From positions 771,728 to 835,727 of the forward strand of contig NZ_CANMBB010000001.1 in the NCBI RefSeq assembly GCF_947495965.1: a stretch of DNA of 64,000 bases, written 5' to 3'. Under the pieces are notes generated by a model. That model was given only the letters and a program-made list of their open reading frames with translations, made no database searches and was not told where the DNA came from. This stretch comes from an uncultured Maribacter sp. Lineage in GTDB: Bacteria; Bacteroidota; Bacteroidia; Flavobacteriales; Flavobacteriaceae. Positions 5,945 to 28,000 of the stretch are shown one piece after another; the stretch's first letter is position 1; each line of letters opens with the position of its first letter. Made by a program: the position numbers and the translations under genes.

Positions 5945-6376
5945 CTAATGGTTAGTTTTCATTTTACTTTTAAGAAGTGACACTAAATTTAATGTCTCTA
6001 AACTATCTTTATAATTAAAAAAAAGCTTTGAAGAATCCTGGTATACTATTTTAATTTTCTGCTGTTCAAAATTATCTACAAAAACATGTACTTCTTTATT
6101 GGTAAGAGAATCTTTAAACTCCCTATATAAGCCATTACCTTTAGATAAGGCAGAAAAACCATTTAAGCGCTCCATAGGGGGTATTCTATCTACTAAAGAA
6201 ACACTATCTACCTCATTAAACTTTATCTCTTTATAATATATTCCAGAGACCATTTTAATACCATCTGGTTCTATTTTTGTCCAGTTTTTATAATGAACCA
6301 CAAAGGCTAACAAACACACAGCTAATGTTATTATTAATATTAAATTCCATAACCAGTGTCTTTTTTTTGTTGCCAT
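5945..6376 (-). CDS. Hypothetical single-pass membrane protein (PH-like?)
   Basis: The 143-residue protein has a basic N-terminus, one membrane helix (about residues 10-27) and a soluble domain of about 115 residues with alternating beta strands and a final helix (LNLVSLLKSK). That layout resembles small bacterial PH-like domain proteins, but this is only a structural impression. It lies behind the Pel-like operon, separated from it by a strong terminator hairpin, so it is probably independent of it. Confidence 0.5.
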   Translation of the reverse strand: MATKKRHWLWNLILIITLAVCLLAFVVHYKNWTKIEPDGIKMVSGIYYKEIKFNEVDSVSLVDRIPPMERLNGFSALSKGNGLYREFKDSLTNKEVHVFVDNFEQQKIKIVYQDSSKLFFNYKDSLETLNLVSLLKSKMKTNH

Positions 6377-6408: not shown

Positions 6409-6443
6409 AAATAAAAGAAACTACAAGATAGCTTCTTTTATTT
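6409..6443 (-). terminator. Terminator hairpin of the Pel-like operon
   Basis: AAATAAAAGAAACTA (6409-6423) pairs with TAGCTTCTTTTATTT (6429-6443) around a 5-nt loop: 15 pairs with one G-T wobble. The hairpin overlaps the stop codon of the 1334-residue gene and ends the long minus-strand operon. Confidence 0.6.
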
Positions 6444-9400
6444 AAAATTATAAATTAACCCAAACTGAATAACGTTAGAATAGAAATTTTTAATGGTATA
6501 AAATTCATATCCAAGATTAATCTTTGTGAAATCTGTTATTCTATAGGACATATCTCCAATATACCTTTGAAAAGTAGGTTCATTCTTTTCTAAAAAGAAA
6601 CCAAAGTCTGCAGAAAAATTAAATTTACTTTTATCTGAACCCAACACTACCATAGCTCCTGCACCCCCATAAATTCTTTCTTTAGCCATCCAATATGGGT
6701 AACCCGACCTACGGTCTGTACTACCAATACCTCCTGCACCTTCTATCATTGGATTAAGCTTAAATTTATTAAACTTAATGAGTTTATACTCTAACCTACC
6801 CATTAACATATGATCATTTTCTTTATCAGTATAATAATTAGACTCTAATGAAATTATAGGTACAAACTTCTTACCTATTACCATTTCTTTATAAACATTA
6901 AACTGCAGCCTGTAAATATCTAAAGAATATCCAGGCCCTGATCTTACTGGAAAAGCGTCTAATTGAAAAGCTGTGAAATTATCTTTCTTAGCATAGTTTA
7001 GTTCTGCTCCTGCTTGAAAAAAGAACTCTCCAAAATTGTCTCTCTCTGCTCTTCCTTTTAAAGCATATTTATACTTTTTACTAGATTTTTTTGTAAACCC
7101 ATATTCTAACCCCATTAAATCATGACCTACATTAGACCTTCTTCTAGGAAAACCATCTAATTTATACATAGTACTTTGTGTAAAAGAAAAGCTATGCATA
7201 TCTCCTTTACTATTGTGAGTACTATATGTTAGGTTATTTGTTAATGCATTAGGTCTTAACTTATCATTAATACTAAAAGAACCAAAACTTATAGAAGAGC
7301 CTCTTTCTTGCCTCATTTTCTTTGCAACTTGTGCTCCAATTTCAGGGTCTAATAAATCGCCATATTTTCTAAATATTGCTAATTGTTCTTTAAGCTCTAA
7401 GTCTTTTACTTCTTTATTAAGAGCTCTTTTATATTTTTTATCAATTTTATCACTTGGTATACTAAATGCTATTCTAGCAGATTCCTCTATTTTTCCTTCA
7501 TACAACATTATAGTAGCCATAAAAGAACGCGCATCATAATCTTTTGGGTTTTTAGCATTATACTTTCTAAAAACTTTTCTTAACTTATTTATATTATTTG
7601 TCTCATAGAGCCAAGACATTTTGTCCTTAATTGCTATTCTATCTGCACATTCTGCCCATTCTAACGCTTTTTTATAGTTTCCATAATCTGCAAAAGCTAT
7701 TGCTATTTTATTAGATAAGTGCTTTAATTCTTTAGAACAACTTTCTTCGTTTTTAAGTTCCTTAACAGCTTTTCTTGTATCGTTTGCTAATAATAAAGCT
7801 ATGTAATATGGAAAATCTTTTTCTTTCATCCTTTCAAAATTAGAAGAACTTAATACCCAAAAATCTTTTGTTTCTTTATCTATTCCTTTTGCGCATTTTT
7901 CCCATTCTAAAGCTTTATCAAACCTAAGGTTATCTGCAAAAGTCCAAGCAATAGTACTAGCCAATTCTTTATAAGCAGCATTGCAGGGCTCTAATAAAAT
8001 TAATTCGTTTACTAAATCAGGATCCCTCTTATCTATTAAATGATTTATATAGAGTGATGCGTTTTTAGAATTTGGCTGTATAATTAGTAACTGCTTTAAT
8101 ACTTGTTTTATTTTTTTATGATTTTGGGGTTCATTAAAATAATCTACATACTCCGTTAAAACATTGGCATCTTTTGTTTTCCAATCTATTTGTCTTGTAA
8201 GCCATTGTTTGCGAACTATATCATTAGGATAATCTTCAATAAGTTTAATTTTTCTTGAAATATCTGCTGTATTTTTAGATTTGAACCTTAAGTAATACTT
8301 GTTTAGGTTCACCCAAATTTCTTTTTCTCTTTTTTGCCAAGCCATATAAGTTGCATATTCTTTCCATATATCTGAGCTTGCATTTGGGTTTGTTTTAAAG
8401 TTTTCTTCTATTAAATCAGTGGCTTTTTTTAAATCTCCATCTGCAACAAATCTATTAACCAAATCTGCCATTGGAGCCATTAATTTTTTATTCTTCAAGT
8501 ATAATTCGTATGCCTTATTCACTTCCGATAGTACAACATTGTCTGGTATATTCACATCTCCAGATTTGCCAAATAAATCTGGAACGGAGATAGATGGGTT
8601 TCTTGTTTTTACAGAATACAAAAAGCCATCTAACATTGCTGTTTTTTTAACTTCAACCTCTTCCCCTTCCAAAAGTTCATCTACTAACTTAAGATTGGCA
8701 TTATCTACATACATTAACCAAAAATTACTCTTATCCTTGTTTCTTGCATTAGTACTCTCAACTTCATATAGACCATCAAAATTAGAATGTCTATAATACG
8801 CATAACGCCAATCCATGGTTTTTTCAGATGCTTTTGTTGCATTAATAAACCTTGAAAATGGATGATCTCTCTTATATTCATAAATATGGTCTTTAAAAGT
8901 ATCAAACATCCCTTTTTTACCATTTTTAGAATACCAGTTTAACTTGTGTTTATTTCTATAACTAAAATGACCACTAGTTGCAGCATTTGATGCATCTGGA
9001 ATTTGATAAACATCATCTGGATGCACAAAATGTGTCCATATACCAGTACATATATACATAGATTCTATAGCCCATGTATTTGTTTTTTCTAATACATAAC
9101 CACTACTTATTCTAGGAAAATCAAAAAACTTATCATTGTAAGGATCAGGATCAAATTCTCTATCACCGCCCTCTTCTTTTGTTCCTAAATAAATACTTTG
9201 CATATACTTAAGACTTGGCATTCCTTCATGTAACTTTGCTAGCCCAACACTATCTATATAGTTTGATGGTGGTACATAAGAAGTTGGTAAACTTTTAAAA
9301 TCTAATACTTTCCATTTTTTTTCGGCAGCATCTAGTCCAGTAACTATATATTTTGGATTTTTCCAATCCGATTTTAATAAGGAGACATGGTTATAGCCAT

Positions 9401-10442
9401 GAAAACCTAACTCATGTCCACTTTTAAGTACATCTCTAGCAATCCAAGCACTTAGTTTTTGGGTAGAACCATTTTTAACAACCGTATTTCTATCCCATTC
9501 TTTAAAGGTAAATGGTGGAATAACATGTGCATTATAATCAAAAGTAACATAAGCTGTATACTCCATGTTTTGCTCTAATGCAAATTTTTTCATATCGGGC
9601 CACCAAACGTCTTTTACATAATCTGTTACCGTTATATTTAGCTCAGACTTAATAGGTTCTTTATAAATACTATATGTGGGAGCTGGAAAATCATCTAAAA
9701 ATATTGTAGCCACATTTGCTATTGGGTAAGGAATACCTTCTAAACCTTTAAGGATACTAGAAAACATAAATCCACGCATACTTTTATTAAGTAATGTAGC
9801 AGAATTAAAGAGTATAACTCTTCCTTTTCCAATCTTATTTTCTAATAAAACAGGATAATCATTATTGTTAGTAGCACATACTAAAACCTGCGTATTATCC
9901 GAAAAATTACGTCCAGAGAAACCTAAATGTAATCCATCATCATTGTACTTTAACCCTTGTTTTCCAGGGAAAATTGGAGAGATAAGATGATACCCTTGTG
10001 CTGTTAAATTAGTTTCCCAATTTGCATCTGGATTAAGTCCTAATAAAAAAGAAATACGTTCATCTTTAATTGCTTTAGTTACATATAATGTTCCGCCTTT
10101 AGCAACAAAATTTAGTATTGCTTTAATAGCATTATCATTTAAAGGAGTGGTTTCGTATATGCATAAAACTCTTGTTGTTGGTGCTATTTTAGGAACCTCA
10201 TTAAAGTCTTTAACATATAAATTTTTATATGGTATTTTAGTGTAATCTAATGCTTTATATAAGTTTTTGCTTTCTATAGCATTACTATATTCATTTTTGC
10301 TAACTAAAAACTGCACTAGAGGAAGCTCTTTACTCTTTTCTGGAATACTAAACTCGTGTGTAAACCTGTAAATATCTCTTTGGCAACCTATAGTTAATCC
10401 TAATAAAAAGATAAATAAACCATATTTTATATTTTTAATCAT
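6438..10442 (-). CDS. PelA-deacetylase/PelB-like TPR and beta-barrel fusion lipoprotein
   Basis: The 1334-residue protein has a lipoprotein signal (LTIGC, Cys20). Residues about 40-235 form an alpha/beta domain of DUF2194 or glutamine-amidotransferase-like type. Residues about 240-560 resemble the NodB-fold deacetylase of PelA: catalytic/metal Asp pair D250-D251 in FLDDFPAP, HGYNH giving metal ligands H348 and H352, and a later WTHFVHPDD (469-477). From about 640 to 1090 come helical TPR-like repeats (several with ALEWxxCA). Residues about 1105-1334 are a run of amphipathic beta strands ending in LIYNFK, like an outer-membrane barrel. In Pseudomonas, PelA and PelB are separate and PelB provides TPRs plus the export barrel. 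I infer a one-chain deacetylation and export machine. It overlaps the membrane-protein gene upstream by 4 bp (ATGA). Confidence 0.7.
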   Translation of the reverse strand: MIKNIKYGLFIFLLGLTIGCQRDIYRFTHEFSIPEKSKELPLVQFLVSKNEYSNAIESKNLYKALDYTKIPYKNLYVKDFNEVPKIAPTTRVLCIYETTPLNDNAIKAILNFVAKGGTLYVTKAIKDERISFLLGLNPDANWETNLTAQGYHLISPIFPGKQGLKYNDDGLHLGFSGRNFSDNTQVLVCATNNNDYPVLLENKIGKGRVILFNSATLLNKSMRGFMFSSILKGLEGIPYPIANVATIFLDDFPAPTYSIYKEPIKSELNITVTDYVKDVWWPDMKKFALEQNMEYTAYVTFDYNAHVIPPFTFKEWDRNTVVKNGSTQKLSAWIARDVLKSGHELGFHGYNHVSLLKSDWKNPKYIVTGLDAAEKKWKVLDFKSLPTSYVPPSNYIDSVGLAKLHEGMPSLKYMQSIYLGTKEEGGDREFDPDPYNDKFFDFPRISSGYVLEKTNTWAIESMYICTGIWTHFVHPDDVYQIPDASNAATSGHFSYRNKHKLNWYSKNGKKGMFDTFKDHIYEYKRDHPFSRFINATKASEKTMDWRYAYYRHSNFDGLYEVESTNARNKDKSNFWLMYVDNANLKLVDELLEGEEVEVKKTAMLDGFLYSVKTRNPSISVPDLFGKSGDVNIPDNVVLSEVNKAYELYLKNKKLMAPMADLVNRFVADGDLKKATDLIEENFKTNPNASSDIWKEYATYMAWQKREKEIWVNLNKYYLRFKSKNTADISRKIKLIEDYPNDIVRKQWLTRQIDWKTKDANVLTEYVDYFNEPQNHKKIKQVLKQLLIIQPNSKNASLYINHLIDKRDPDLVNELILLEPCNAAYKELASTIAWTFADNLRFDKALEWEKCAKGIDKETKDFWVLSSSNFERMKEKDFPYYIALLLANDTRKAVKELKNEESCSKELKHLSNKIAIAFADYGNYKKALEWAECADRIAIKDKMSWLYETNNINKLRKVFRKYNAKNPKDYDARSFMATIMLYEGKIEESARIAFSIPSDKIDKKYKRALNKEVKDLELKEQLAIFRKYGDLLDPEIGAQVAKKMRQERGSSISFGSFSINDKLRPNALTNNLTYSTHNSKGDMHSFSFTQSTMYKLDGFPRRRSNVGHDLMGLEYGFTKKSSKKYKYALKGRAERDNFGEFFFQAGAELNYAKKDNFTAFQLDAFPVRSGPGYSLDIYRLQFNVYKEMVIGKKFVPIISLESNYYTDKENDHMLMGRLEYKLIKFNKFKLNPMIEGAGGIGSTDRRSGYPYWMAKERIYGGAGAMVVLGSDKSKFNFSADFGFFLEKNEPTFQRYIGDMSYRITDFTKINLGYEFYTIKNFYSNVIQFGLIYNFK

Positions 10443-12418
10443 AAATCAAAAATTAAATCATTCAATTTTGAAGCATTTTCTTTGTTTACTATTTCATAAA
10501 CGGTTAAAAATTCATCTTCAAAATAAACCTTTACCCTACGTCCCCTCTTCTTAAGAATATTTATTTGCGCATCTATTTTTAAAGCGGTTTCTTTTTTAAT
10601 TATAAAATTTTCATCGGTAGAATTAGAATTGTTTTTAGGAATAAAAATAAAGACACTATTGGGTAAAATATTGCTCGAATTCTTTTTCATTAATTCTTCA
10701 TCATCCTTTATAGTTTGATAGATAGAATCTCTCTTAGAATATAATTCTGTAAAAATATTATAATTGATAAAGTGATGCTCACTTTTACTAATACTACGAC
10801 CGTAATCTTGATTTACAACGGCATAAGAAAAAGGTAAGTAATTACTAGACAAATCATTATATACTAATAAAATGTCTGTTTTAAGTTCGTCTGTTTTTTT
10901 AAAATCATATTTAAAAAAACTATTTGTAAAATAGGAAACAAAAATAAAAGTGATAAAAATAACAGCGATACTAATTACTCTTAAGTTTCTTTTTTTAGGA
11001 ACAGAAATTTTTAAGTAATGTGCCAATACCCCAAAGAATATTCCTATAAGAACAACAATTAATACGGATAAAGTTTGATAGTACAAATCAATATCTATCC
11101 ATGACCATTTTAACCATTTTAAAGCAATTACGGCATTAAAGAAAAGTAGAAAAACCATTGCTGGATTCCATTTTTCTCTATTTTTTATAAATAATGGTAA
11201 AAGAACTAATATTGTAATGCCTCCTAATAAAGAATACACAAGAACCAACTCATCTATACTAATTACCAATTGAGGAAAATAAGTATACACATCTACTAAT
11301 ATCATATTTTCTCTTAAAAAAGAGAAAAAAGAAGTTTCAGTATACCAACAAGCTATTACATGTACAATAAATATTAAACTAATTGCCAAAACATAACTTA
11401 GTAAGCTCCTTAGAACATATGGTAAATTTTTCTTAGTAACTAAAAGCAATGCTAATACTAAAAAGATTGGCATAATTATTAAAGTCACAAATAAATTTAT
11501 TAATCCTAAAGCAGTATAAATAATAAATAATAGTATAAAAAATTTACGCTTTTCCTTTGCAAGCAACTTTGGTTGTACAGTAAATAACATAAGCGGTAAT
11601 GCAAAACATATAGCCATATATAAGGCGTTATGTTCTAGTAATAAGTTTATGTTTATTGGCAAATATTTGTAAAAAAAGCCAAAAAATAGAACCCCCATCA
11701 TAGGCGCTAAAAAATTGGATTTAGTAATTTTAGTTAATATCCAATATAGAATTAAACTTACTGCAAAAGTTTCTAACAATCCAAAAGAGTGTACAGCCAT
11801 TTCTTCACTTATGCCTGTTATTTTGCTATAAAAGTTTATTAAAGCATTTTCTCCTAATAGTATAAAGCCAGGAGTAAACCATTTATTCTCATTAAACTGT
11901 TTTACAAATTCTAAATTCTGAATCCATAATCCCGACAGCGTATATAAATCATTTTTTAGAAATAAATATCTTGAAACAAAACAAGCAAAAGAAACTAAAA
12001 AAGCGGTTACTATTTTAAAATTAATCTTCTTAGGAACAAAAAAGTTTTTGCTCTTTTTTAATTGCTTAGAAATATTTGGTCTCTCTTCCATGAATTTAAA
12101 AAAAGAAAGAAGAAAAGCTTTTCTCTTTTTTTGAATTTGACTAGTAGAATTGCGAAGACCTCCTAAGTCTAAATATAAAAAAAGAAGTAATCCAATGAAC
12201 ATAGAAATTAACGCAAAAACATCATACATCTTAAACTGTATTAGTGTAAAAATTAATAATAATATTACACTTCCAAAGAATATAGAACGCTTTACAACGT
12301 AATCTAAATTATAGGTTTTTATTGGTTGTTTTGTAACTATTTGATGAACAAAAAGCACTCCTAAAAAAAGAAGCAAGACCCGAAAAGGACCTAAAAGAAC
12401 ATTATCTAGAATCACCAT
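10439..12418 (-). CDS. Polytopic membrane protein of the Pel-like operon, unknown function
   Basis: The 659-residue protein has about 12-14 predicted membrane helices over residues 5-510 and a soluble C-terminal domain of about 140 residues. Two N-terminal helix pairs are followed by a cytoplasmic-looking loop (about 90-130) rich in Lys. The layout recalls GT-C-type membrane glycosyltransferases, but I see no diagnostic motif. It sits where PelD/PelE-type inner-membrane subunits would be expected, yet shows no GAF, GGDEF or TPR region. It starts 3 bp after the GH114-like gene and overlaps the fusion gene by 4 bp, so it belongs to the same operon. Confidence 0.55.
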   Translation of the reverse strand: MVILDNVLLGPFRVLLLFLGVLFVHQIVTKQPIKTYNLDYVVKRSIFFGSVILLLIFTLIQFKMYDVFALISMFIGLLLFLYLDLGGLRNSTSQIQKKRKAFLLSFFKFMEERPNISKQLKKSKNFFVPKKINFKIVTAFLVSFACFVSRYLFLKNDLYTLSGLWIQNLEFVKQFNENKWFTPGFILLGENALINFYSKITGISEEMAVHSFGLLETFAVSLILYWILTKITKSNFLAPMMGVLFFGFFYKYLPININLLLEHNALYMAICFALPLMLFTVQPKLLAKEKRKFFILLFIIYTALGLINLFVTLIIMPIFLVLALLLVTKKNLPYVLRSLLSYVLAISLIFIVHVIACWYTETSFFSFLRENMILVDVYTYFPQLVISIDELVLVYSLLGGITILVLLPLFIKNREKWNPAMVFLLFFNAVIALKWLKWSWIDIDLYYQTLSVLIVVLIGIFFGVLAHYLKISVPKKRNLRVISIAVIFITFIFVSYFTNSFFKYDFKKTDELKTDILLVYNDLSSNYLPFSYAVVNQDYGRSISKSEHHFINYNIFTELYSKRDSIYQTIKDDEELMKKNSSNILPNSVFIFIPKNNSNSTDENFIIKKETALKIDAQINILKKRGRRVKVYFEDEFLTVYEIVNKENASKLNDLIFDL

Positions 12419-12421
12419 TTT

Positions 12422-13237
12422 TTAATTACTTTTAAATTTTGGAATAGTTTGTAAATCTATTTGTCCTACAAATGATGAAAACCCCATTTTTTTTAACTCT
12501 CTATTAATAATGGTTTTCATCTCCAAAGTTTCGGCATATTCTATTACATAAATAGGTTTTTTTACTTGTTTTTTTGTTGCTTTTAAATTTTCTACAATTT
12601 GTTTTTTAGTATCCTTATCTCTTAACTTGTATTCTTTTTTATCAAAATTATAGGAGCTAATAACAGATTCTATAAGGATAGCATTAGTAATATTACTAAG
12701 TTCTTTAGCTATAAAAAGCCCCCCATTTTGTACTAAATAGATGTCTTTATTTTTAGTTTTTAGTTTTTTTAAAAAGCTTAAAAAAGCTTCTTTTTGATTA
12801 TATAATTTTCCCCACTTAGAAACATTATCTAAGTTATCTAAAAACAAACCTTGAATACCTTTTTTTTGCATTCTGTTAATTTCACCTAATAATACTTGTT
12901 GCGCTTTTTCATTCTTTATGTCAATGAAATGACTATTCCAAATATCATTTTTTTCTAAGGTATATGGTTTAATTTCTTTATAAAAAGAAGCATATTCATT
13001 TACTTCGGATAAGCTTAAATAAGCTACAACCTTTTCATTGTTTTTATTAAACACAGCAATTTCTGAAGTAGAATAATGTTCCGATTCTATAATTACCAAA
13101 GCATAGCCTTTTACTAATTCTGGATTTACTTTGCCATAACAAACAAATAATTTATCCTGTATAGAATTATGCTTAGTATGCATCTGTGATACACCTAAAA
13201 AAGGTAATAAAAAATAAAACATACTAATAAGCCGCAT
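12422..13237 (-). CDS. GH114/PelA-hydrolase-like exported endo-glycosidase
   Basis: The 271-residue protein has a signal peptide (about residues 1-18) and a TIM-barrel of the GH114 (endo-alpha-1,4-polygalactosaminidase) type, related to the hydrolase domain of PelA. Visible family motifs are VVAYLSLSEVNEY (about 70-82), the catalytic-type Asp in GIQGLFLDNLD (D134) and VQNGG (about 169-173). It is a free-standing version of the domain that is N-terminal in PelA. It overlaps the PelG-like gene by 14 bp and is followed 3 bp later by the membrane-protein gene. Its likely role is trimming or modifying the polymer in the periplasm. Confidence 0.75.
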   Translation of the reverse strand: MRLISMFYFLLPFLGVSQMHTKHNSIQDKLFVCYGKVNPELVKGYALVIIESEHYSTSEIAVFNKNNEKVVAYLSLSEVNEYASFYKEIKPYTLEKNDIWNSHFIDIKNEKAQQVLLGEINRMQKKGIQGLFLDNLDNVSKWGKLYNQKEAFLSFLKKLKTKNKDIYLVQNGGLFIAKELSNITNAILIESVISSYNFDKKEYKLRDKDTKKQIVENLKATKKQVKKPIYVIEYAETLEMKTIINRELKKMGFSSFVGQIDLQTIPKFKSN

Positions 13238-14831
13238 AATAATGATAATCTAGTTTTTTAAAAAAAATAATAGTTTCTCGCAAAGTTAACATCATAAAAA
13301 GCCCTGCTCCTACTAGCATACCCACAACGCTATATTCATAACTTATTACCCTACATAAAATAAAACCTACAATTAAATTAGCCAAACAAGCAATTAGTAT
13401 AGAACGCAATGGCCCTTTTGGAGCATCTAGTGTAAAAAGGTATAAAGAGTTAAGCATTCCCCATGTTAAAAACAAATATCCTATACCTCCTATAATACAT
13501 ACTTTAATACTTATAAAATCTAGGGCTTCCCCAAAATTTGCTTGGTACCCCCATGGTTGGGTAATTAATAAATAGATAAAAGTTGTAGTTAACAGTGCCG
13601 TAAGCAGCAACAAAGAAATATGTCCTAAATACATTTTAAACAAGCTGCGGTTAAACGTATCTTTATTTACTAATAAAATATTACGTTGTTTAACATCTAA
13701 AAACTTACTAAAAGAAGCAATGGAATATTCTAAAACACCCGCTAACATAAAGAAGATTACAATTGCCAGATCCATACCAATTTCATAGTTCTTCTCATAA
13801 AGAAAAATAAACTGATGGGTTAAATCTATATCTGCAGACCATGCCAATATTCTATCAATAAAAATAAAAACATAGATAAGGGTTCCGTAAAAAAAGTATC
13901 TATAGTTTTTATAGATTACCATTAGTTTTTTTGGCCTAAGAGTTTCTTCTGTGTAAGATCCCCTTTTCTTATTAAAAAAGTATTCTAAGAATAATTTAGA
14001 TATAAATATAGCTACCACAATACCTACCCAATGTGTTATGTATACATGCAACGTAGTATAAAGCTTTAAACCTAAAGCTATTCCCGTTGCCATTAATATT
14101 GCTAAGGATATTACCCATCTTTGCCTTATGGTATGAAAGGGTGCTGATACCAAAAGAAGCAGGCCTATTAAAAAGGCATAAATACAAGTAATTAAAATAA
14201 ATGAAAAAGGGTAAAGGTTAAAAAGAAAATTTATAGCAAATATGAATAAAAACGTTACCAATAACCCTTTTATTCCAGACTCTATTAATTTATTAACCAC
14301 CATTTTTGCTTGTTTATATTCTTGATGATGCCAATAAAAAGATGCTTGCCTTCCAAGTACCTGAACATATCCTCCAGATACTATTAGCCCTATAATTACC
14401 CCAAATACTACAGAGGTAGACTGTACAATATTAAAACCTATAAAAGCCCATAAAGAATAGCCAAAAACAATTATAGATGCTATTTGTAAAAAAATTGGTA
14501 GTAAATGAAATATTCCTAGTGGATAAAATTGCATTAACAATTTTGTTTTCATCCATAAATAACTCGAGACTGGTATAACTGAAGTTTTTTCTTTTTCCTT
14601 TTTAAGCTCATTTACATTTTTAAGAGATTCTACATCTCTACCTTTTAGGTCTTCATAAATATGTTTCGCTAAATCTGATATAGTTACAAAACCATAATCC
14701 GAAAAAACATCTTTATCTCGTATTCCAAAAGATTCTAAAGTAGCCAAAACAACCATAACACTAACAGGGTTTCCTATTTTTTGTATTACAGATGCAGTTA
14801 TATCTTCTATATTTTTATGCAAGCTTTTCAT
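13224..14831 (-). CDS. pelG: PelG-like polysaccharide flippase (MOP-type membrane protein)
   Basis: The 535-residue protein has a soluble N-terminal part (about residues 1-95, with DYGFVTISDLAKHIYEDL) and then about 12 membrane helices. The pattern of paired helices, the FIDRILAWSA stretch in mid-protein and its place directly behind a PelF-type glycosyltransferase identify it as a PelG-like transporter. PelG moves the Pel polymer or its precursors across the inner membrane together with PelF, PelD and PelE. It is longer than Pseudomonas PelG because of the N-terminal soluble extension. It follows pelF by 30 bp and overlaps the GH114-like gene by 14 bp. Confidence 0.75.
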   Translation of the reverse strand: MKSLHKNIEDITASVIQKIGNPVSVMVVLATLESFGIRDKDVFSDYGFVTISDLAKHIYEDLKGRDVESLKNVNELKKEKEKTSVIPVSSYLWMKTKLLMQFYPLGIFHLLPIFLQIASIIVFGYSLWAFIGFNIVQSTSVVFGVIIGLIVSGGYVQVLGRQASFYWHHQEYKQAKMVVNKLIESGIKGLLVTFLFIFAINFLFNLYPFSFILITCIYAFLIGLLLLVSAPFHTIRQRWVISLAILMATGIALGLKLYTTLHVYITHWVGIVVAIFISKLFLEYFFNKKRGSYTEETLRPKKLMVIYKNYRYFFYGTLIYVFIFIDRILAWSADIDLTHQFIFLYEKNYEIGMDLAIVIFFMLAGVLEYSIASFSKFLDVKQRNILLVNKDTFNRSLFKMYLGHISLLLLTALLTTTFIYLLITQPWGYQANFGEALDFISIKVCIIGGIGYLFLTWGMLNSLYLFTLDAPKGPLRSILIACLANLIVGFILCRVISYEYSVVGMLVGAGLFMMLTLRETIIFFKKLDYHYYAAY

Positions 14832-14861
14832 TAAGAAAAAAAAAGGGGGATTTAATTTTTT

Positions 14862-16373
14862 TTAATACTCTACTAAATGAGTGTATTTTTGACCTAAGTT
14901 TTGATAAGTCTCCTCAAAAGATTTAATAAAGGTTTCTATAGTAAAATGGTCCGTTACTTTATTTCTTGCATTTTCTCCCATCCAACTTCTTAATTGTTGG
15001 TTTTGTAATAGTTTAACAACCTTCTCTGCTATTTCTACATAATCTTTAGGTTTGCAAACAAGTCCGCAAGTATCATCTAAAGCCTCTGTAACACCTCCTA
15101 CATCTGTTGCAACTACTGGCACACCACAACTCATAGACTCTATTACTGTATAAGGAAAACCTTCTGAAATTGATGTTAATATAGATATATCTCCTTCTGA
15201 ATAAATTAGTTCTGGTTTATTATGAAAGCCTTTTAAGAAAAAGTTATTTTCTACTTTAAGTTCTTTTATCAAATTTTCACATTCTACTGTATATTCTGGT
15301 ACAGCATCTTTATTACCATAAATTAAAAACTGCACTTCTGGTATTGTTTTTATAACCTCTGCACAAGTCTTAATCATTGTAAGTATATCTTTTAAATCAA
15401 AAATTCTTGCTGCAGCTACTACAGTAGGAATATCTTTTAAATGCTCTGGCTTGGATCTTGGTTTAAATAAATTTTCATCTACACCATTATATATTACTTC
15501 AATTTTAGATAACTCTGCTCCATAAAATTTTTCCCAAGACACGTTAAATTTACTTACTGTAGTAATTTTAGATGCGTGATAATAGACTAACTTGGTAATA
15601 CATTCTGAAAAATTAATTAGCATCTTTTTTAGGAAATAAGAATAATCTGCAGTGCTTATTGCAATTAAACGTTCTCTAATAAAAACACCATGTTCTGTTA
15701 CTAAAATAGGAGTATTGTATTTATATTTTAATGCCAATGCTGGTATAACTGCAATTCCAGAAATAGTAATATGAGATATATCCATTTTAGGAACTTCTAT
15801 TGCCATAGGAATAAGAAAACGATATATCCAGCGCATTGCTGTAGTCATGTCTTCTAATGGAATTCTATTTAGCTCATCCTTAGGGAGCACATTAGAAATT
15901 ACATCACAGAAAGTATTCCAAACCGGCTCACTGGTCATTGTTGTTTTGTAATCGTATTTCTGAAAAAAACGCCACATTTTATAAAAACAAGCATTTATTG
16001 TTTTTAAAGATTGTTTTTCAGAATATATTTCTTCTATGAAAGATTTAAAATTAGGGACAAAAGAATTTTTAATAATATCTTTTGATGTAAATTCCCTTGC
16101 CTTTAGTATTGTTGAATATTTTATATTATAATCTACACAATCAAAAGGTTCTTCAGGAGACCACATAGGAACCTGAATAATTTTTTTTACGTTTTCTGTT
16201 AATGGGTATCTAGGGGTTACTTCTACACCTGCGTTTATAGAATATAAAGTAAAATCTATGCCCTTAGTTTTAGAACATAAATCATGAGCCCAAGTTGATA
16301 CTCCACCTCCATTATAAGGATACGTCCCTTCTGTAATAAGGAGTACATTTATTGGATTATTGGTTAGTGACAT
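14862..16373 (-). CDS. pelF: PelF-like GT4 family glycosyltransferase
   Basis: The 503-residue cytosolic enzyme begins with the PelF/DUF3492 signature EGTYPYNGGGVSTW (residues 15-28). It has a GT-B fold with a Rossmann-like C-terminal half containing the GT4 E-x7-E nucleotide-sugar motif EGFPYTVIE (E404 and E412) and CGVPVVATDVGG. PelF polymerises the Pel polysaccharide from UDP-sugars. The N-terminal signature makes this family assignment firm; the actual sugar is unknown. It precedes the PelG-like gene by 30 bp and follows the TM1410-like lipoprotein gene by 137 bp, in which I see no terminator. Confidence 0.88.
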   Translation of the reverse strand: MSLTNNPINVLLITEGTYPYNGGGVSTWAHDLCSKTKGIDFTLYSINAGVEVTPRYPLTENVKKIIQVPMWSPEEPFDCVDYNIKYSTILKAREFTSKDIIKNSFVPNFKSFIEEIYSEKQSLKTINACFYKMWRFFQKYDYKTTMTSEPVWNTFCDVISNVLPKDELNRIPLEDMTTAMRWIYRFLIPMAIEVPKMDISHITISGIAVIPALALKYKYNTPILVTEHGVFIRERLIAISTADYSYFLKKMLINFSECITKLVYYHASKITTVSKFNVSWEKFYGAELSKIEVIYNGVDENLFKPRSKPEHLKDIPTVVAAARIFDLKDILTMIKTCAEVIKTIPEVQFLIYGNKDAVPEYTVECENLIKELKVENNFFLKGFHNKPELIYSEGDISILTSISEGFPYTVIESMSCGVPVVATDVGGVTEALDDTCGLVCKPKDYVEIAEKVVKLLQNQQLRSWMGENARNKVTDHFTIETFIKSFEETYQNLGQKYTHLVEY

Positions 16374-16510
16374 GTAGGTTTTCCTATTGTTATAGTTGGT
16401 TAAACAAATTCAAAGAAAACACATAATCCAGATATGTTAATTTATATTAGTTAAAGCATTGCATTTAATCTATAAAAGGTCATATTCATTACCTTCATCG
16501 ATAAAATACA

Positions 16511-17542
16511 CTACTCATCATAGTTCTCAAAATACTCAAAGGCATCAATAATATCTAAGTAAACACCATCAAATCCTGTAGAAAGTATTTTATCTAAGTA
16601 GGCATCTTCATTTCCATAAATAATATTCTGCCATTCTTCTTCCCAATACCGTACTTTAAAATTCCCTTTCCAGTTTTTATTTTCTTCATCTAACCAAACT
16701 GGTTCATTTTTATCCCAATCATTATCCCAATAATATCTATAGTCTTCTGCCTCTCCAATAGACATGTAGCAAATAACTAATCTTTGCCCACCACCTGGTT
16801 TCGTTTTTAACTTTTCAATATCTAATTTAGAAAAAGGAGTACCATCACTAAAAAACATATCTAAAAAAACTACATCATAATTAGAGTCTCCTATTTCATT
16901 AAGCAACTCATTTTTTGTATTATAATCTTCGTAGTTAAGAATAAATAAAAAATTCTCTGCATCATCAAGGGAAGATACATCTCTGCTAGTTAATTTATTA
17001 AGTTTAGTAGGTACCGGTGGTATTAATGTTAAATCTCTTTGAGTAGCCACAAAAGGGATAAACCCTAAATTGTAATTTTGAGTATAAGCATCCTTTATTT
17101 TAGCTTCAGAAGAACAATAATCTATGACAAAAATTGAATTTCCAAACTCTTGAGAAACTTTCAAAAGATCTATGTTATATTCTGTAACATCAGGTTTAGT
17201 TGCTACATTATCTCTCTTATACCCGTAAAATAAATTTTCTTGGCCATTAGCATCAATAGCTTCTAAATACTTTTTACTTGGTGCACCATCTGCCGTACCA
17301 GATTTTGTAACCAATTCTATACCGTTTTGAGGTATTATAGAGAAATCTGGATTTTGTTCTTTTGCATGCTCACTTAATCCAATAACAAAGGAACGCATAT
17401 CTTCTCTAAAATCTCTATCTCTTATAGATGGCGGAATAGTACTTTTTTCTAGCGCATCTGTGCTTACATCTTTACTTTTTTCACATCCTGCATTGATGAA
17501 AAATAAAAACAAAACTAATTTTATAAAACTCATAGTATTCAT
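16511..17542 (-). CDS. MJ1477/TM1410 family putative glycosidase lipoprotein
   Basis: The 343-residue protein has a lipoprotein signal (INAGC, Cys20 from the first ATG; a second ATG three codons later is equally possible). The C-terminal half is the TM1410/GH114-type barrel: VICYMSIGEAEDYRYYW, then VRYWEEEWQNIIYG and the catalytic-type acidic stretch GFDGVYLDIIDAFEYF near the end. The family is related to endo-alpha-1,4-polygalactosaminidases. It is the first gene of the minus-strand Pel-like locus and has a promoter-like element upstream. It is probably an envelope-anchored enzyme that cleaves or matures the polymer. Confidence 0.8.
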   Translation of the reverse strand: MNTMSFIKLVLFLFFINAGCEKSKDVSTDALEKSTIPPSIRDRDFREDMRSFVIGLSEHAKEQNPDFSIIPQNGIELVTKSGTADGAPSKKYLEAIDANGQENLFYGYKRDNVATKPDVTEYNIDLLKVSQEFGNSIFVIDYCSSEAKIKDAYTQNYNLGFIPFVATQRDLTLIPPVPTKLNKLTSRDVSSLDDAENFLFILNYEDYNTKNELLNEIGDSNYDVVFLDMFFSDGTPFSKLDIEKLKTKPGGGQRLVICYMSIGEAEDYRYYWDNDWDKNEPVWLDEENKNWKGNFKVRYWEEEWQNIIYGNEDAYLDKILSTGFDGVYLDIIDAFEYFENYDE

Positions 17543-17645: not shown

Positions 17646-18467
17646 TTACCCCAAACCTACATCTAAAGTCATCATTACAATAAAACCTCCAATAAAACCC
17701 ATAACAGCAATGTCTGTATGTTTGTCTTGTTGGGTTTCAGGAATAACTTCCTCTACTACTACAAAGATCATTGCTCCCGCAGCAAAAGAAAGTGCATAAG
17801 GTAATATAGGCTGAAAAGTTAGTACTGCCCATGCTCCAATTACTGCTGCAATTGGTTCTACTAGTGCAGATGCTTGTCCAAACATAAAACTTTTGGTTCT
17901 ACTTAAACCTTGCCTTCTTAAAGGCATAGCAACTGCAAAACCTTCTGGAAAATTCTGAAGTCCTATTCCTAAAGCTAAAGCTACTGCTCCACCAATAGAA
18001 GCACCATCAAAACCTGCAGCAACGCCACCAAATAAAACTCCCACTGCCAAACCTTCAGGAATATTATGCAAGGTTATTGCTAGTGTTAATAATACCGATC
18101 TATGCCATGGTGTTTTTATCCCTTCTGTTTCGCTTTCCTTAAAATTAATATGTAGGTGTGGTAATATCTTATCTAAGCCAAATAAAAATAATGCTCCAAG
18201 CAAAAACCCAACTGCTGCCGGAATTACTTTTACAAATCCTTCTCCAGGACTCATTTCTATACCAGGTGCTAAAAGGCTCCAAAAACTTGCTGCCACCATA
18301 ACACCTCCTGTAAAACCCAACATACCGTCTAAAACTGCCCTATTCATGGTTTTAAACAAAAAAACTAATGCAGCTCCTGCCGCTGTTAATGCCCATGTAA
18401 AAGTGGTAGCATAAAATGCTGCTAAAATTGGGTCTATAGATTCTAAATACGCAATTACTTGTTCCAT
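17646..18467 (-). CDS. ZIP family metal transporter (ZupT/GufA-like)
   Basis: The 273-residue inner-membrane protein has eight predicted helices and the two ZIP metal-binding motifs HNIPEG (134-139, helix IV) and QNFPEG (171-176, helix V), plus EE in helix VI (VVVEEVIPE). ZIP proteins take up zinc, manganese or iron. It lies 2 bp after the DtxR/MntR-type regulator gene on the same strand, so it is almost certainly in its operon and repressed by it. The variant Gln in place of His in the second motif is a GufA-subfamily feature and may shift metal preference. Confidence 0.92.
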   Translation of the reverse strand: MEQVIAYLESIDPILAAFYATTFTWALTAAGAALVFLFKTMNRAVLDGMLGFTGGVMVAASFWSLLAPGIEMSPGEGFVKVIPAAVGFLLGALFLFGLDKILPHLHINFKESETEGIKTPWHRSVLLTLAITLHNIPEGLAVGVLFGGVAAGFDGASIGGAVALALGIGLQNFPEGFAVAMPLRRQGLSRTKSFMFGQASALVEPIAAVIGAWAVLTFQPILPYALSFAAGAMIFVVVEEVIPETQQDKHTDIAVMGFIGGFIVMMTLDVGLG

Positions 18468-18469
18468 GA

Positions 18470-19126
18470 TTATTCTATTATTCTTAAATATAAGTTAGAT
18501 GCTATTTGGTCTGATATTCGAATATCTATATCTCTAATTTTTATATGCAATGAGCCATCAAACTCTTCTTTGTCTACAACAAAAATAGAATCTCCTAAAG
18601 CTATTTTATTTTTATCTAAAAACTTTAAAAAAGGTGGCGAAGAGTCTTTTACTCCTACACATATACCTTCCTTCCCAATTGGCACTTCATTTAATAATCG
18701 TTTAATAGATTTTTTAAACTCGCCACTTTTAGATGGTATTGGGTCACCATGAGGATCAATTTGCGGAAATCCTAAATGCTTATCTAGCATATCAATAAGC
18801 TTTTCACTTTTTATATGTTCTAATTGTTCTGCAACTTCGTGAACCTCATCCCAAGAAAATTCTAATTTTTCTACCAAAAAAACCTCCCAAAGTCTATGCT
18901 TTCTAACAATTGACAACGCCACTTTTAAACCATATTCTGAAAGCGTAACACCTTGGTATTTTTTGTAATTTACAAGGCCTTTTTCAGACAATTTTTTAAT
19001 CATATCACTAACAGAAGATGGCTTTGTCTCCATTTTTTCTGCAATAGCATTTGTTGAAACCTTTCCTTGTTCCCCTTTGCCTAAATGATATATAATTTTA
19101 ATATAGTCTTCTTCTGAGAGCGTCAT
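18470..19126 (-). CDS. DtxR/MntR family metal-dependent transcriptional regulator
   Basis: The 218-residue protein has an N-terminal winged HTH (about 1-65, MTLSEEDYIKIIYHLG onward), a metal-binding dimerisation domain (HRLWEVFLVEKLEFSWDEVHEVAEQLEH, then GDPIPS) and a C-terminal FeoA/SH3-like domain (about 150-218). Proteins of this class repress metal uptake genes when loaded with Mn(II) or Fe(II). It is cotranscribed with the ZIP transporter and divergent from a TonB receptor, so control of both sides of the intergenic region is likely. Whether it senses Mn or Fe cannot be read from the sequence. Confidence 0.92.
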   Translation of the reverse strand: MTLSEEDYIKIIYHLGKGEQGKVSTNAIAEKMETKPSSVSDMIKKLSEKGLVNYKKYQGVTLSEYGLKVALSIVRKHRLWEVFLVEKLEFSWDEVHEVAEQLEHIKSEKLIDMLDKHLGFPQIDPHGDPIPSKSGEFKKSIKRLLNEVPIGKEGICVGVKDSSPPFLKFLDKNKIALGDSIFVVDKEEFDGSLHIKIRDIDIRISDQIASNLYLRIIE

Positions 19127-19175: not shown

Positions 19176-19191
19176 TTTAGATTTGCCTAAA
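19176..19191 (+). promoter_or_regulatory. Candidate DtxR/MntR operator over the TonB-receptor -7 element
   Basis: TTTAGATTTGCCTAAA is an inverted repeat (TTTAG, six-base spacer, CTAAA) resembling DtxR-family boxes. It contains TAGATTTG (19178-19185), a TAnnTTTG -7 element for the receptor gene. Repressor bound here would block RNA polymerase. AT-rich sequence can produce such palindromes by chance. Confidence 0.45.
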
Positions 19192-19218
19192 TTTTATTTT
19201 ACATCGATAAAAATATTA

Positions 19219-21507
19219 ATGAATACATTATACAAGTCTCTATTAATTAGCTTTCTATTTTTATACAACTATAGTACATTAACTGCTCAAGAAGGAAAAA
19301 TAAATGGGGTGGTTTCTGAAAACAACACTCCTATACCCTTTGCTAATGTTCTTTTAAAAGGTACTATAAAAGGAACATCAACAGATGAGGAAGGTGCTTT
19401 TACATTACAAAATCTAAGCGCTGGAGATTATACATTATTGGTTTCTGTACTTGGTTACCAACCTTATGCTAAGAAAATAGCACTTAAAGAAAAAGAAAGT
19501 AAAACAGTAGTTATAAATTTAATAGCTTCTTCTGAAGAATTAGAAGAAACCGTAGTTACAGGAACCTTAAAGGCTGTAAATAGATTAGATAGCCCAGTTC
19601 CTGTGGAAGTATATAGCCCTACTTTTTTAAAAAAGAACCCTACCGCAAATATCTTTGAAGCACTACAAAATGTAAATGGTGTTAGGCCACAAATAAACTG
19701 TAGTGTTTGCAATACTGGAGATATACATATTAATGGTCTTGAGGGTCCTTATACTTTGGTTCTAATAGATGGCATGCCAATAGTTAGCGGATTAGGAACT
19801 GTATACGGACTTTCTGGAATACCAAATTCTCTTATAGAACAAATAGAAATTGTAAAAGGCCCAGCTTCTAGTTTGTATGGTAGTGAAGCCGTTGGTGGAC
19901 TAATAAATATTATTACAAAAAGTACAGAAGATGCTCCCATATTTTTTGCCGATGCATTTGCTACAGGTTGGGAAGAGTATAGTTTAGATTTTGGCACAAA
20001 ACTAAGTGTTGGTAAAAAGACAGATGCGCTAATAGGAATTAATTACTTTAATTACGATAACCCAATAGATAATAACAACGATAATTTTACCGATTTAACC
20101 ATACAAGAGCGAATATCTGTTTTTCAAAAATGGAATATTAAGCGTAAAGAAAATAGAATACTTTCCTTTGCTGGAAGATTTTTTTATGAAAATCGCTGGG
20201 GAGGAGAATTGCAATGGACTCCAGAATTTAGAGGCGGAACAGATATTTATGGCGAAAGCATAAAAACCAGAAGATGGGAAGTATTAGGCAAATACCAATT
20301 GCCAATAAAAGAGAAAGTACTATTTTCTTTTTCTTATAATGACCATCATCAAGATTCTTTTTATGGAGATACACCTTATTTGGCAGACCAGCGTATTGGT
20401 TTTACACAACTTACATGGGATAAAACCAAAGGGAAACACGATTTACTTTTTGGAACAGCATTACGATATAATTACTATGATGATAATACCTCTGCTACGG
20501 AAACTACTAACAAAAATAACCCTGATGAAATAGTTATTCCTAGCCTTTTTGTTCAAGACGAAATAAAGTTTAATAAAAAACATTCTTTATTAGTAGGTGC
20601 TAGGTATGATTATGATAGCAGACATGGCTCTATTTTCACCCCTAGAGCCGCTTATAAATGGAAAGTTACTACCAATGGTATTTTAAGATTAAATGCTGGA
20701 ACAGGCTTTAGAGTTGTAAATTTATTTACAGAAGACCATGCTGCATTAACTGGGTCTAGAGAAGTAATAATTGCTAATGCATTAAAACCAGAACAATCTT
20801 ACAATACCAACCTTAATTATTTGCAAAAATTCTACGGGACTAACGGTACTTTTTCTACACTAGATGCATCCCTTTTTTATACCCATTTTAGTAATGTAAT
20901 TCTACCAGATTATGACACAAACCCTAATCAAATTATATATGATAATTTAGACGGAAAATCCGTATCTAAAGGAGCTAGTGTAAATTTAGATGTTTCCTTT
21001 CCTAACCAATTAAAAATTTCTTTAGGGGCTACAATTATGGATGTTAGTAATACAGAAGGTGGAGTAACAGAAAGACAAATACTTACCGAAGGTTATTCTG
21101 GAACATGGGGAATAACATATACCATTGCCCCTTGGGATTTAACCGTAGATTATACAGGCAACCTATATGGTCCAATGCGTTTGCCATTATTAGGAGCGCT
21201 AGACCCAAGAAGTGAATACTCCCCAGTTTGGAGCATACAAAACATACAATTTACATATAAGGGAATAAAAAATGTAGAGCTTTATGCAGGAGTTAAAAAC
21301 CTTTTAGACTGGACGCCCAACCGTGGAAATCCTTTTATTATTGCAAGAGCTAATGACCCGTTTGATAAAGAGGTAACTTTTGATGCCAACGGAGATGCTG
21401 TTGCTACAGCAAACAACCCTAACGCTTTAACTTTTGACCCAACCTATGTTTATGGCCCTAACCAAGGTATTAGAGGATTTTTTGGGATACGTTATCGTTT
21501 AGATTAA
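19219..21507 (+). CDS. TonB-dependent outer-membrane receptor, probably metal or metallophore
   Basis: Counting from ATG 19219 the protein has 762 residues. A TTG start 12 codons earlier is rejected because the ATG gives a clean signal peptide ending at TLTAQ, and the upstream codons overlap the -7 element. A carboxypeptidase-like domain (about 25-105) precedes the plug, with CSVCNTGDIHINGLEGPYT and IEIVKGPASSLYGSEAVGGLINI, and a 22-strand type barrel ends in GIRYRLD. The CSVCxxxxIxINGLEGPYT plug signature occurs in a Bacteroidota receptor branch often linked to metal uptake. Its divergent position next to a DtxR/MntR regulator and ZIP transporter supports uptake of Mn, Fe or Zn complexes. 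Confidence 0.9.
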   Translation: MNTLYKSLLISFLFLYNYSTLTAQEGKINGVVSENNTPIPFANVLLKGTIKGTSTDEEGAFTLQNLSAGDYTLLVSVLGYQPYAKKIALKEKESKTVVINLIASSEELEETVVTGTLKAVNRLDSPVPVEVYSPTFLKKNPTANIFEALQNVNGVRPQINCSVCNTGDIHINGLEGPYTLVLIDGMPIVSGLGTVYGLSGIPNSLIEQIEIVKGPASSLYGSEAVGGLINIITKSTEDAPIFFADAFATGWEEYSLDFGTKLSVGKKTDALIGINYFNYDNPIDNNNDNFTDLTIQERISVFQKWNIKRKENRILSFAGRFFYENRWGGELQWTPEFRGGTDIYGESIKTRRWEVLGKYQLPIKEKVLFSFSYNDHHQDSFYGDTPYLADQRIGFTQLTWDKTKGKHDLLFGTALRYNYYDDNTSATETTNKNNPDEIVIPSLFVQDEIKFNKKHSLLVGARYDYDSRHGSIFTPRAAYKWKVTTNGILRLNAGTGFRVVNLFTEDHAALTGSREVIIANALKPEQSYNTNLNYLQKFYGTNGTFSTLDASLFYTHFSNVILPDYDTNPNQIIYDNLDGKSVSKGASVNLDVSFPNQLKISLGATIMDVSNTEGGVTERQILTEGYSGTWGITYTIAPWDLTVDYTGNLYGPMRLPLLGALDPRSEYSPVWSIQNIQFTYKGIKNVELYAGVKNLLDWTPNRGNPFIIARANDPFDKEVTFDANGDAVATANNPNALTFDPTYVYGPNQGIRGFFGIRYRLD

Positions 21508-26797: not shown

Positions 26798-26826
26798 TCA
26801 AAAAACAACAATAAAAAACAATCAAA

Positions 26827-27996: not shown

Positions 27997-28000
27997 GATT

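Follow-up and report, generated by a model that had tools for sequence, protein, structure and literature searches.

Pel is described in Proteobacteria, in several other Gram-negative phyla and in Gram-positives, and its known control goes mostly through cyclic di-GMP (c-di-GMP) and PelD. We analysed a window of 64,000 nt from contig NZ_CANMBB010000001.1 of an uncultured Maribacter sp. (GCF_947495965.1), which carries a Pel-like locus on the minus strand at 6438-17542. This locus is apparently a conserved Bacteroidota version of the Pel machinery, undescribed in the literature searched: it shares PelF and the PelA hydrolase with canonical Pel, and departs from it in several of the features by which canonical members are recognised. 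Two surveys of pel operons published in 2020 report rearrangements of pelB and pelA in other organisms; Bacteroidota are unmentioned in their main text (the supplements were outside the search), and the list of phyla in the available part of a 2025 PelA paper does not name them. A search of PMC full text, the supplementary tables of the surveys being outside it, turned up neither a published Bacteroidota Pel operon nor the gene fusion described below.

We consider it likely that the operon encodes a trans-envelope machine for the synthesis, modification and export of a Pel-type exopolysaccharide, i.e. a partially deacetylated alpha-1,4 polymer of N-acetylgalactosamine and galactosamine (GalNAc/GalN). 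A first-pass annotation, made from the letters of the window, had inferred a Pel pathway for six minus-strand open reading frames (ORFs) at 6438-17542. The six are there, on that strand, in the ORF list, and the pathway assignment is supported by our profile, structure and synteny tests. PelF, the fusion and the GT-C-fold protein occur together in 27 of 395 sampled Bacteroidota genomes, so that the arrangement is no peculiarity of this one.

Gene content, order and inheritance

The features of the locus are the following.

16511-17542, minus: circularly permuted GH191/TM1410-like lipoprotein, 343 aa (TIGR01370, 193.8 bits; 9euz, 9ep5)
17030-17416, minus: its segment corresponding to the C-terminal half of TM1410, placed first (PDB alignment)
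16526-16918, minus: its segment corresponding to the N-terminal half of TM1410, placed last (PDB alignment)
14862-16373, minus: PelF, GT4 polymerase, 503 aa (NF038011, DUF3492, hhalign)
13224-14831, minus: PelG-type membrane exporter, 535 aa (PF16933 in relatives, hhalign)
14532-14831, minus: N-terminal soluble extension of the PelG-type protein (common to a Streptomyces pelF-neighbour protein)
12422-13237, minus: free-standing PelA-hydrolase-type (GH166-like) glycosidase, 271 aa (5tcb, 5tsy, hhalign)
10439-12418, minus: polytopic membrane protein of predicted GT-C fold with a soluble C-terminal domain, 659 aa (AlphaFold, Foldseek)
6438-10442, minus: lipoprotein-like fusion of deacetylase, tetratricopeptide repeat (TPR) superhelix and outer-membrane barrel, 1334 aa
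9003-10352, minus: DUF2194 deacetylase domain of the fusion, residues 31-480 (PF09960, PDB 9zau)
7302-8543, minus: predicted TPR superhelix, about residues 634-1047 (model and profile matches to TPR proteins)
6447-7295, minus: predicted 16-strand beta barrel, about residues 1050-1332 (model, Foldseek)

From pelF on, the five genes form one tight run: the gaps between PelF, PelG, hydrolase, GT-C-fold protein and fusion are 30, -14, 3 and -4 bp, in agreement with the limit of 30 bp noted before. The upstream glycosidase gene lies 137 bp from pelF. PelF exceeds the cut-off of the equivalog family NF038011 (156.6 bits against 100), matches DUF3492 and aligns with canonical PelF at E 1.1e-67 by hhalign. 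Its E404-x7-E412 motif is identical in 105/105 aligned PelF proteins (conserved-residue alignments left out proteins shorter than 75% of the window protein and low-scoring transferases); both the identity and the motif first proposed are thus confirmed.

A wider search gave at least 217 relatives of the fusion, of which 80 were kept for a gene-order survey that returned 79 loci, including Maribacter, Cellulophaga, Flavobacterium, Salegentibacter, Tenacibaculum, Roseivirga, Fodinibius, Gracilimonas and Balneola. Of these 79, 70 show the whole order PelF-PelG-(HD)-hydrolase-GT-C-fusion (counting L163, whose PelF lies in two frames); among the nine others, seven start at contig ends, L145 (Flavobacterium davisii) is frame-broken and L165 is rearranged. 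A second set, which shares some genomes with the first (113 loci in total), keeps the order in 33/34 loci, the hydrolase of L060 lying in two frames; L065 differs. The synteny survey over Bacteroidota that had been proposed as a check therefore finds a conserved order, and the arrangement is not due to chance. Among the 395 genomes, PelF over cut-off, the GT-C-fold protein and the fusion are each found in 27, with identical genome lists; PF09960 passes its cut-off in 28, i.e. the 27 fusions (1268-1349 aa) and a partial weak match in G252. In 102 loci the pairwise distances of the five proteins are correlated (Spearman 0.77-0.92, as shared descent alone would also produce), and in a comparison with 11 other PelFs the 105 PelFs of the loci group as a single clade (support 0.999). 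These two observations suggest that the set was inherited as a unit.

PelC, PelD and PelE had been called unrecognisable, and this stands: canonical profiles built on 4-5 sequences each gave no match at E 1e-3 in the ORFs of the 113 loci, where a canonical PelB profile gave none either. Reduction, as described earlier, is one part of the change: since the polytopic protein appears to have a GT-C fold, the set has also been altered and enlarged.

Some loci depart from the common form. Several frames are broken in the F. davisii operon (L145, 5000-13700), by decay or assembly error; the ORFs of F. columnare (L142) are full-length. Partial second copies of the PelG, hydrolase and GT-C genes lie beside the main operon in L079 (15438-19901), and a partial second PelG copy lies upstream of PelF in L097. 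One operon of the Bacteroidota type (L148) stands in a record labelled as a Limnohabitans metagenome-assembled genome, possibly mis-binned.

The fusion, the glycosidases and the GT-C-fold protein

Residues 31-480 of the fusion are a DUF2194 domain (PF09960, E 5.4e-72), and the family profile covers PDB 9zau, an entry whose listing says no more than predicted membrane protein, at E 2.2e-78. Nine residues—D250, D251, H348, H352, D397, H471, H474, D476 and D477—are identical in 111/111 aligned relatives, which bears out the deacetylase His/Asp motifs read earlier from the letters; a lipobox-type cysteine at position 20 is found in 98/111. The C-terminal 775 residues were modelled as a TPR superhelix followed by 16 strands (pLDDT 89.5, pTM 0.57, the latter value making the relative placement of the domains uncertain). 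Foldseek returned for this model BcsC first (E 8.8e-12), then 4y25 (TMt 0.71), listed as a bacterial polysaccharide outer membrane secretin and which we take to be PgaA, then BcsC again, and PelB (9h80_M) at rank 5 (E 3.3e-7). The predicted model has thereby the TPR superhelix and 16-strand barrel of the BcsC/PgaA/PelB class of secretins. DUF2194 also accompanies PelF/PelG in a Cetobacterium pel cluster, and the fusion profile matches that Cetobacterium protein at E 5e-64. According to the available part of one report (PMC12022489), PelA binds the TPRs of PelB, a behavior that the fusion of a deacetylase with TPR and barrel fits; the HxxxH and DD elements of the fusion resemble carbohydrate-esterase metal motifs, by analogy with the PelA of the same report.

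Two GH114/TM1410-type glycosidases had been announced; they are indeed two, but of different kinds. The 271-aa enzyme matches the PelA hydrolase domain (PDB 5tcb, E 6.7e-14; hhalign to PelA, E 4.4e-34), so that the free-standing PelA hydrolase claimed before is found at 12422-13237. Its E190 aligns with the Glu replaced by Ala in 5tsy, and D134 and E190 are identical in 110/110 aligned relatives. The other enzyme, the 343-aa lipoprotein, exceeds the cut-off of TIGR01370 (193.8 bits against 181.25) and is GH191-like. Its residues 209-339 align with 15-139 of 9euz (independent E-value, i-E, 7.4e-25) and its residues 43-171 with 147-271 (i-E 0.008); against 9ep5 both halves align at i-E 2e-8 or better. 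Since the halves of TM1410 are matched in swapped order, the protein is a circular permutation. TM1410 of Thermotoga maritima is given as a founding member of GH191 in the available part of PMC12054363; the locus protein resembles it over the two halves, retaining the Asp and Glu positions, and differs by the swap. E102 and D330 of the permuted form are present in 31/31 aligned relatives. In PMC full text we found no paper on a circular permutation of GH114, and the GH191 paper, in its available part, never mentions permutation.

The swapped form recurs elsewhere. In the Cetobacterium pel cluster, a GH191-like protein aligns without rearrangement to that of the window (E 9.6e-62), and in a plasmid collection three records (Fusobacterium and two Cetobacterium) have the collinear swapped form, the eight others (Cereibacter, Deinococcus, Thermus, Sulfitobacter) matching over one half only. 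The unswapped form also occurs within Bacteroidota (L207). We reject an origin of the swapped form by chimera or frameshift: the order is common to the 31 aligned relatives, it is met again in Fusobacteriota, and L207 has the unswapped form. In the 395-genome survey the permuted enzyme is found in 22/27 carriers, and missing from G070, G074, G299, G330 and G420; in a sample of 247 genomes, G103, which has no fusion match and a PelF match below cut-off, has the full-length permuted form. In four Balneolaceae-type genomes (L208-L211) the gene lies apart from the Pel operon and adjoins, by eye, a recQ-like helicase gene. That two different galactosaminidase-type genes stand beside the locus or co-occur with it points to a GalNAc/GalN polymer.

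Two hydrolases and a deacetylase could also serve to attack foreign Pel, the barrel importing the fragments, and Bacteroidota are rich in loci for polysaccharide use. We regard such a degradative function as very improbable: PelF and the PelG-type exporter belong to the conserved operon (70/79 loci), the barrel is predicted to be of the TPR-secretin class, and the eight genes scanned gave no match to SusC/SusD—a TonB-receptor-like ORF, seen by eye, lies outside the locus at 19183-21507.

The polytopic product, left open by the first-pass annotation, is a membrane protein of 659 aa for which we conclude from the model to a GT-C fold, with a putative transferase activity. Its AlphaFold model (52 sequences; pLDDT 86.6, pTM 0.88) has extra N-terminal helices. 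In the PDB, Foldseek gave 15 matches at E<=0.001, and these, like the seven that follow (E up to 0.11), are all what we take to be GT-C proteins; the 22 best include oligosaccharyltransferases, DPY19, AftD, AglB, ALG enzymes and ArnT. No Pfam or NCBIfam sequence family matches above cut-off, and no profile match makes it PelD or PelE. Searches with its own profile brought up no relative, either from seven pel loci (ORFs; best E 0.31) or from cluster proteins of Thermus, Deinococcus, Streptomyces, Cetobacterium and Pseudoalteromonas (best E 0.05); at E 1e-5 the protein is restricted, among the 395 Bacteroidota genomes, to Pel carriers. Conserved residues include R150, W165 (52/52), D442 (98%) and D444 (92%), the last two placed as periplasmic, on the side of external loop 1 (EL1), by a count of the model helices, and, in the C-terminal soluble domain, H548, D564 (98%) and R627 (52/52).

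Rather than a transferase, such a protein might be a structural replacement of PelD/PelE, joining PelF and PelG while its C-terminal domain docks the TPR/deacetylase protein. It is the one further inner-membrane protein of an operon without recognised PelD/PelE and is present in all 27 carriers; it is in the soluble C-terminal domain that conserved positions such as R627 and D564 are concentrated, and the EL1 acid is not universal. However, GT-C folds are almost always transferases, and the presumed EL1-side residues D442/D444 are themselves highly conserved. The scaffold is therefore quite conceivable, without being the role that we favour.

Proposed polymer path and control

Our findings concern which genes are present and in what order, their domains and invariant putative catalytic residues, the folds predicted for them, their co-occurrence and the lack of a GGDEF match in most carriers; from these we infer the polymer identity (GalNAc/GalN), the topology, the path of the polymer, the lipid anchoring, the GT-C activity and the regulation as follows. 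PelF would polymerise UDP-GalNAc in the cytoplasm and PelG would pass the product through the inner membrane. On the periplasmic side this polymer would meet the lipid-anchored fusion, whose DUF2194 domain may remove acetyl groups, whose TPR superhelix may guide the chain and whose barrel may be the exit; a single polypeptide would do the job of PelA (as deacetylase) and PelB, which bind each other. The free PelA-hydrolase-type enzyme would trim or release the polymer in the periplasm, as the permuted GH191-like lipoprotein probably does at the surface. The GT-C-fold protein would act from the periplasmic side; its most likely task is to transfer a sugar from a polyprenyl-phosphate donor to the exported chain, unless it is a scaffold in place of PelD/PelE. 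Switching would bypass the route through PelD and c-di-GMP.

Judging from profile searches, the best reading is that this switching is mostly independent of c-di-GMP. PelD_GGDEF (PF16963) is found in 0/395 Bacteroidota genomes; the control search detected it in Pseudoalteromonas and gave no match for the Cetobacterium record or for the two carriers included. GGDEF (PF00990) has no match in the genome of the window (99.75% complete) or in 32/35 carrier genomes. Streptococcus intermedius makes Pel without known diguanylate cyclases, yet keeps PelD (PMC12345266, available part); thus independence from c-di-GMP is not new, and it is the loss of recognisable PelD and PelE which is new.

The Balneolaceae-type loci (family f38) and those of G070 and G074 have an extra HD-domain protein (PF13487) between PelG and hydrolase. 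Nineteen HD proteins were collected from the 34 loci, that of L065 included (e.g. L073:10711-12309 and L059:7795-9426), and response-regulator-like genes lie upstream in several HD-containing loci. As the f38 genomes tested have no GGDEF match, the HD protein is unlikely to read c-di-GMP there; in G070 and G074 it could. In L073 a second PelF-like transferase (DUF3492) is encoded upstream, as is a protein with a response-regulator domain. In the most divergent locus, L065, the fusion is separated from the GT-C-like protein (8461-12037) by a GAF-HD protein and by one that resembles, by eye, SpoIIE phosphatases. We counted 53 promoter-like sites, below the 76.2 of shuffled sequence, and 8 terminator-like sites, for which shuffles gave 4.4, so that we draw no regulatory claim from such sites.

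Several results weigh against a Pel-type machine of this kind. No polymer was seen. The PelG-type protein of the window has no Pfam, NCBIfam or PDB match of its own, a profile of eight canonical PelGs found 0 ORFs at E 1e-3 in the 113 loci, and canonical PelGs used one by one did not match either. The fusion gave nothing against the canonical PelA deacetylase (CE21) by hhalign to 5 PelAs, and the best match of its profile to an Azonexus protein in the PelB position is at E 1.9e-4, in one species and probably through the TPRs. The similarity of the membrane protein to GT-C structures is modest (TM-scores 0.31-0.40 by query and root-mean-square deviations 11.6-18.6 for the 15 best), and its EL1 acid, D157, is D in 43, N in 6 and H in 3 of 52 sequences, which makes its catalysis uncertain. 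Three of the 35 carriers (G070, G074 and G299) have GGDEF proteins. Finally a second PelF-like transferase lies upstream in many Balneolaceae-type loci, with DUF3492 in the one scanned, which leaves room for a mixed polymer in such loci.

The PelG-like claim of the first-pass annotation is consequently weaker than noted, the window protein itself matching no family. Among four relatives that were scanned, two exceed the cut-off of Pfam PelG (PF16933, 29 bits) with 33.2 and 29.9 bits, and the family aligns by hhalign with the eight canonical PelGs (E 1.2e-4, probability 54.7) over columns 115-554, which span the membrane part; for these two reasons we call the product of 13224-14831 a PelG-type exporter with moderate confidence. 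Its soluble N-terminal extension of about 100 aa (14532-14831) is common to a Streptomyces pelF-neighbour protein (E 1.6e-6; probability 89.3), and weakly to those of Thermus and Deinococcus. As to the PelA/PelB-type fusion announced earlier, a deacetylase joined to a PelB-like TPR and barrel is there, but this deacetylase is of the DUF2194 type and lacks a match to the canonical PelA profile. A single-sequence PelB query did not match the fusion; given these sequence results, the likeness to exporters rests on the predicted fold.

Alternatively, the PelF-related enzymes of the operon might build an aminosugar polymer other than the Pel of Pseudomonas, such as a capsule-like glycan rich in GalN or one of mixed sugars. 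The PelF of the window stands far from proteobacterial PelF (26.7% identity to that of Pseudoalteromonas; 31.2% to that of Deinococcus), PelC, PelD, PelE and the canonical PelA deacetylase were not found, and the second PelF-like transferase of Balneolaceae-type loci would suit such a glycan. Both glycosidases, on the other hand, fall in galactosaminidase-type families with invariant acidic residues; we therefore find another polymer rather unlikely, and keep the Pel-type exopolysaccharide as our reading.

Tentatively, the locus may even stand for a distinct Bacteroidota lineage of Pel, with a polymer modified by the GT-C protein (branch or cap sugar) once it has crossed the inner membrane, deacetylation within the pore polypeptide, c-di-GMP-free switching and a permuted-GH191 surface hydrolase. 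Without recognisable PelD/PelE and mostly without GGDEF, the Bacteroidota version makes the need for PelD and PelE testable. The joining of deacetylase, TPR and barrel in one gene lends support to the proposed handover between PelA and PelB, and the presence of the GT-C-fold protein in every surveyed carrier suggests a Pel polymer with unseen chemistry, or a new scaffold. The locus might account for matrix formation in many flavobacteria.

Around the operon, a ZIP metal transporter gene (PF02535) and a DtxR-type regulator-like gene (by eye), at window 17646-19126, precede it, as they do in several Flavobacteriaceae carriers. A 143-aa ORF (5945-6376) that follows the fusion is also seen in several other carriers of the Flavobacteriaceae, some having a 678-683-aa ORF inserted before it. 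Efflux genes (OEP, AcrB-family) and two GMC oxidoreductase genes, at 25457-31492, 50562-52265 and 56946-58661, are apparently unrelated to the operon. A PHROGs search gave nothing useful.

Comparison with known systems

At the level of single proteins, the 659-aa product resembles GT-C glycosyltransferases (STT3/PglB, DPY19, ArnT, AftD) by its predicted membrane fold, and differs from them in that no sequence family was matched. The fusion has, like the BcsC, PgaA and PelB secretins, a predicted TPR superhelix followed by a barrel; to our knowledge none of these three carries its own deacetylase.

Among whole systems, the pelADEFG set of the candidate phylum KSB1 (PMC9012183) is likewise an incomplete pel set in a genome of Gram-negative type; in the available part of that paper PelD and PelE are reported and no fusion is mentioned, so that this set is distinguished from ours by its description. 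The pelDE-ADA-FG clusters of Gram-positives (Bacillus cereus, S. intermedius) and the Cetobacterium cluster (L087) share with the locus a deacetylase separate from the hydrolase and a hydrolase encoded nearby, and in Cetobacterium this deacetylase is of the DUF2194 type, as in the fusion. In contrast these clusters keep PelD or a GAF protein, and PelE or a gene in its place, and we saw in them no barrel, fusion or GT-C protein.

With pelABCDEFG of Pseudomonas aeruginosa the locus has in common PelF, a PelA-type hydrolase, a deacetylase and, less securely, a probable PelG-type exporter and, by predicted fold, an exporter made of TPR and barrel. It differs by having no recognised PelC, PelD or PelE, and most carriers have no GGDEF match; its hydrolase is free, its deacetylase is DUF2194 instead of CE21 and is fused to the TPR and barrel, and a protein of predicted GT-C fold has been added.

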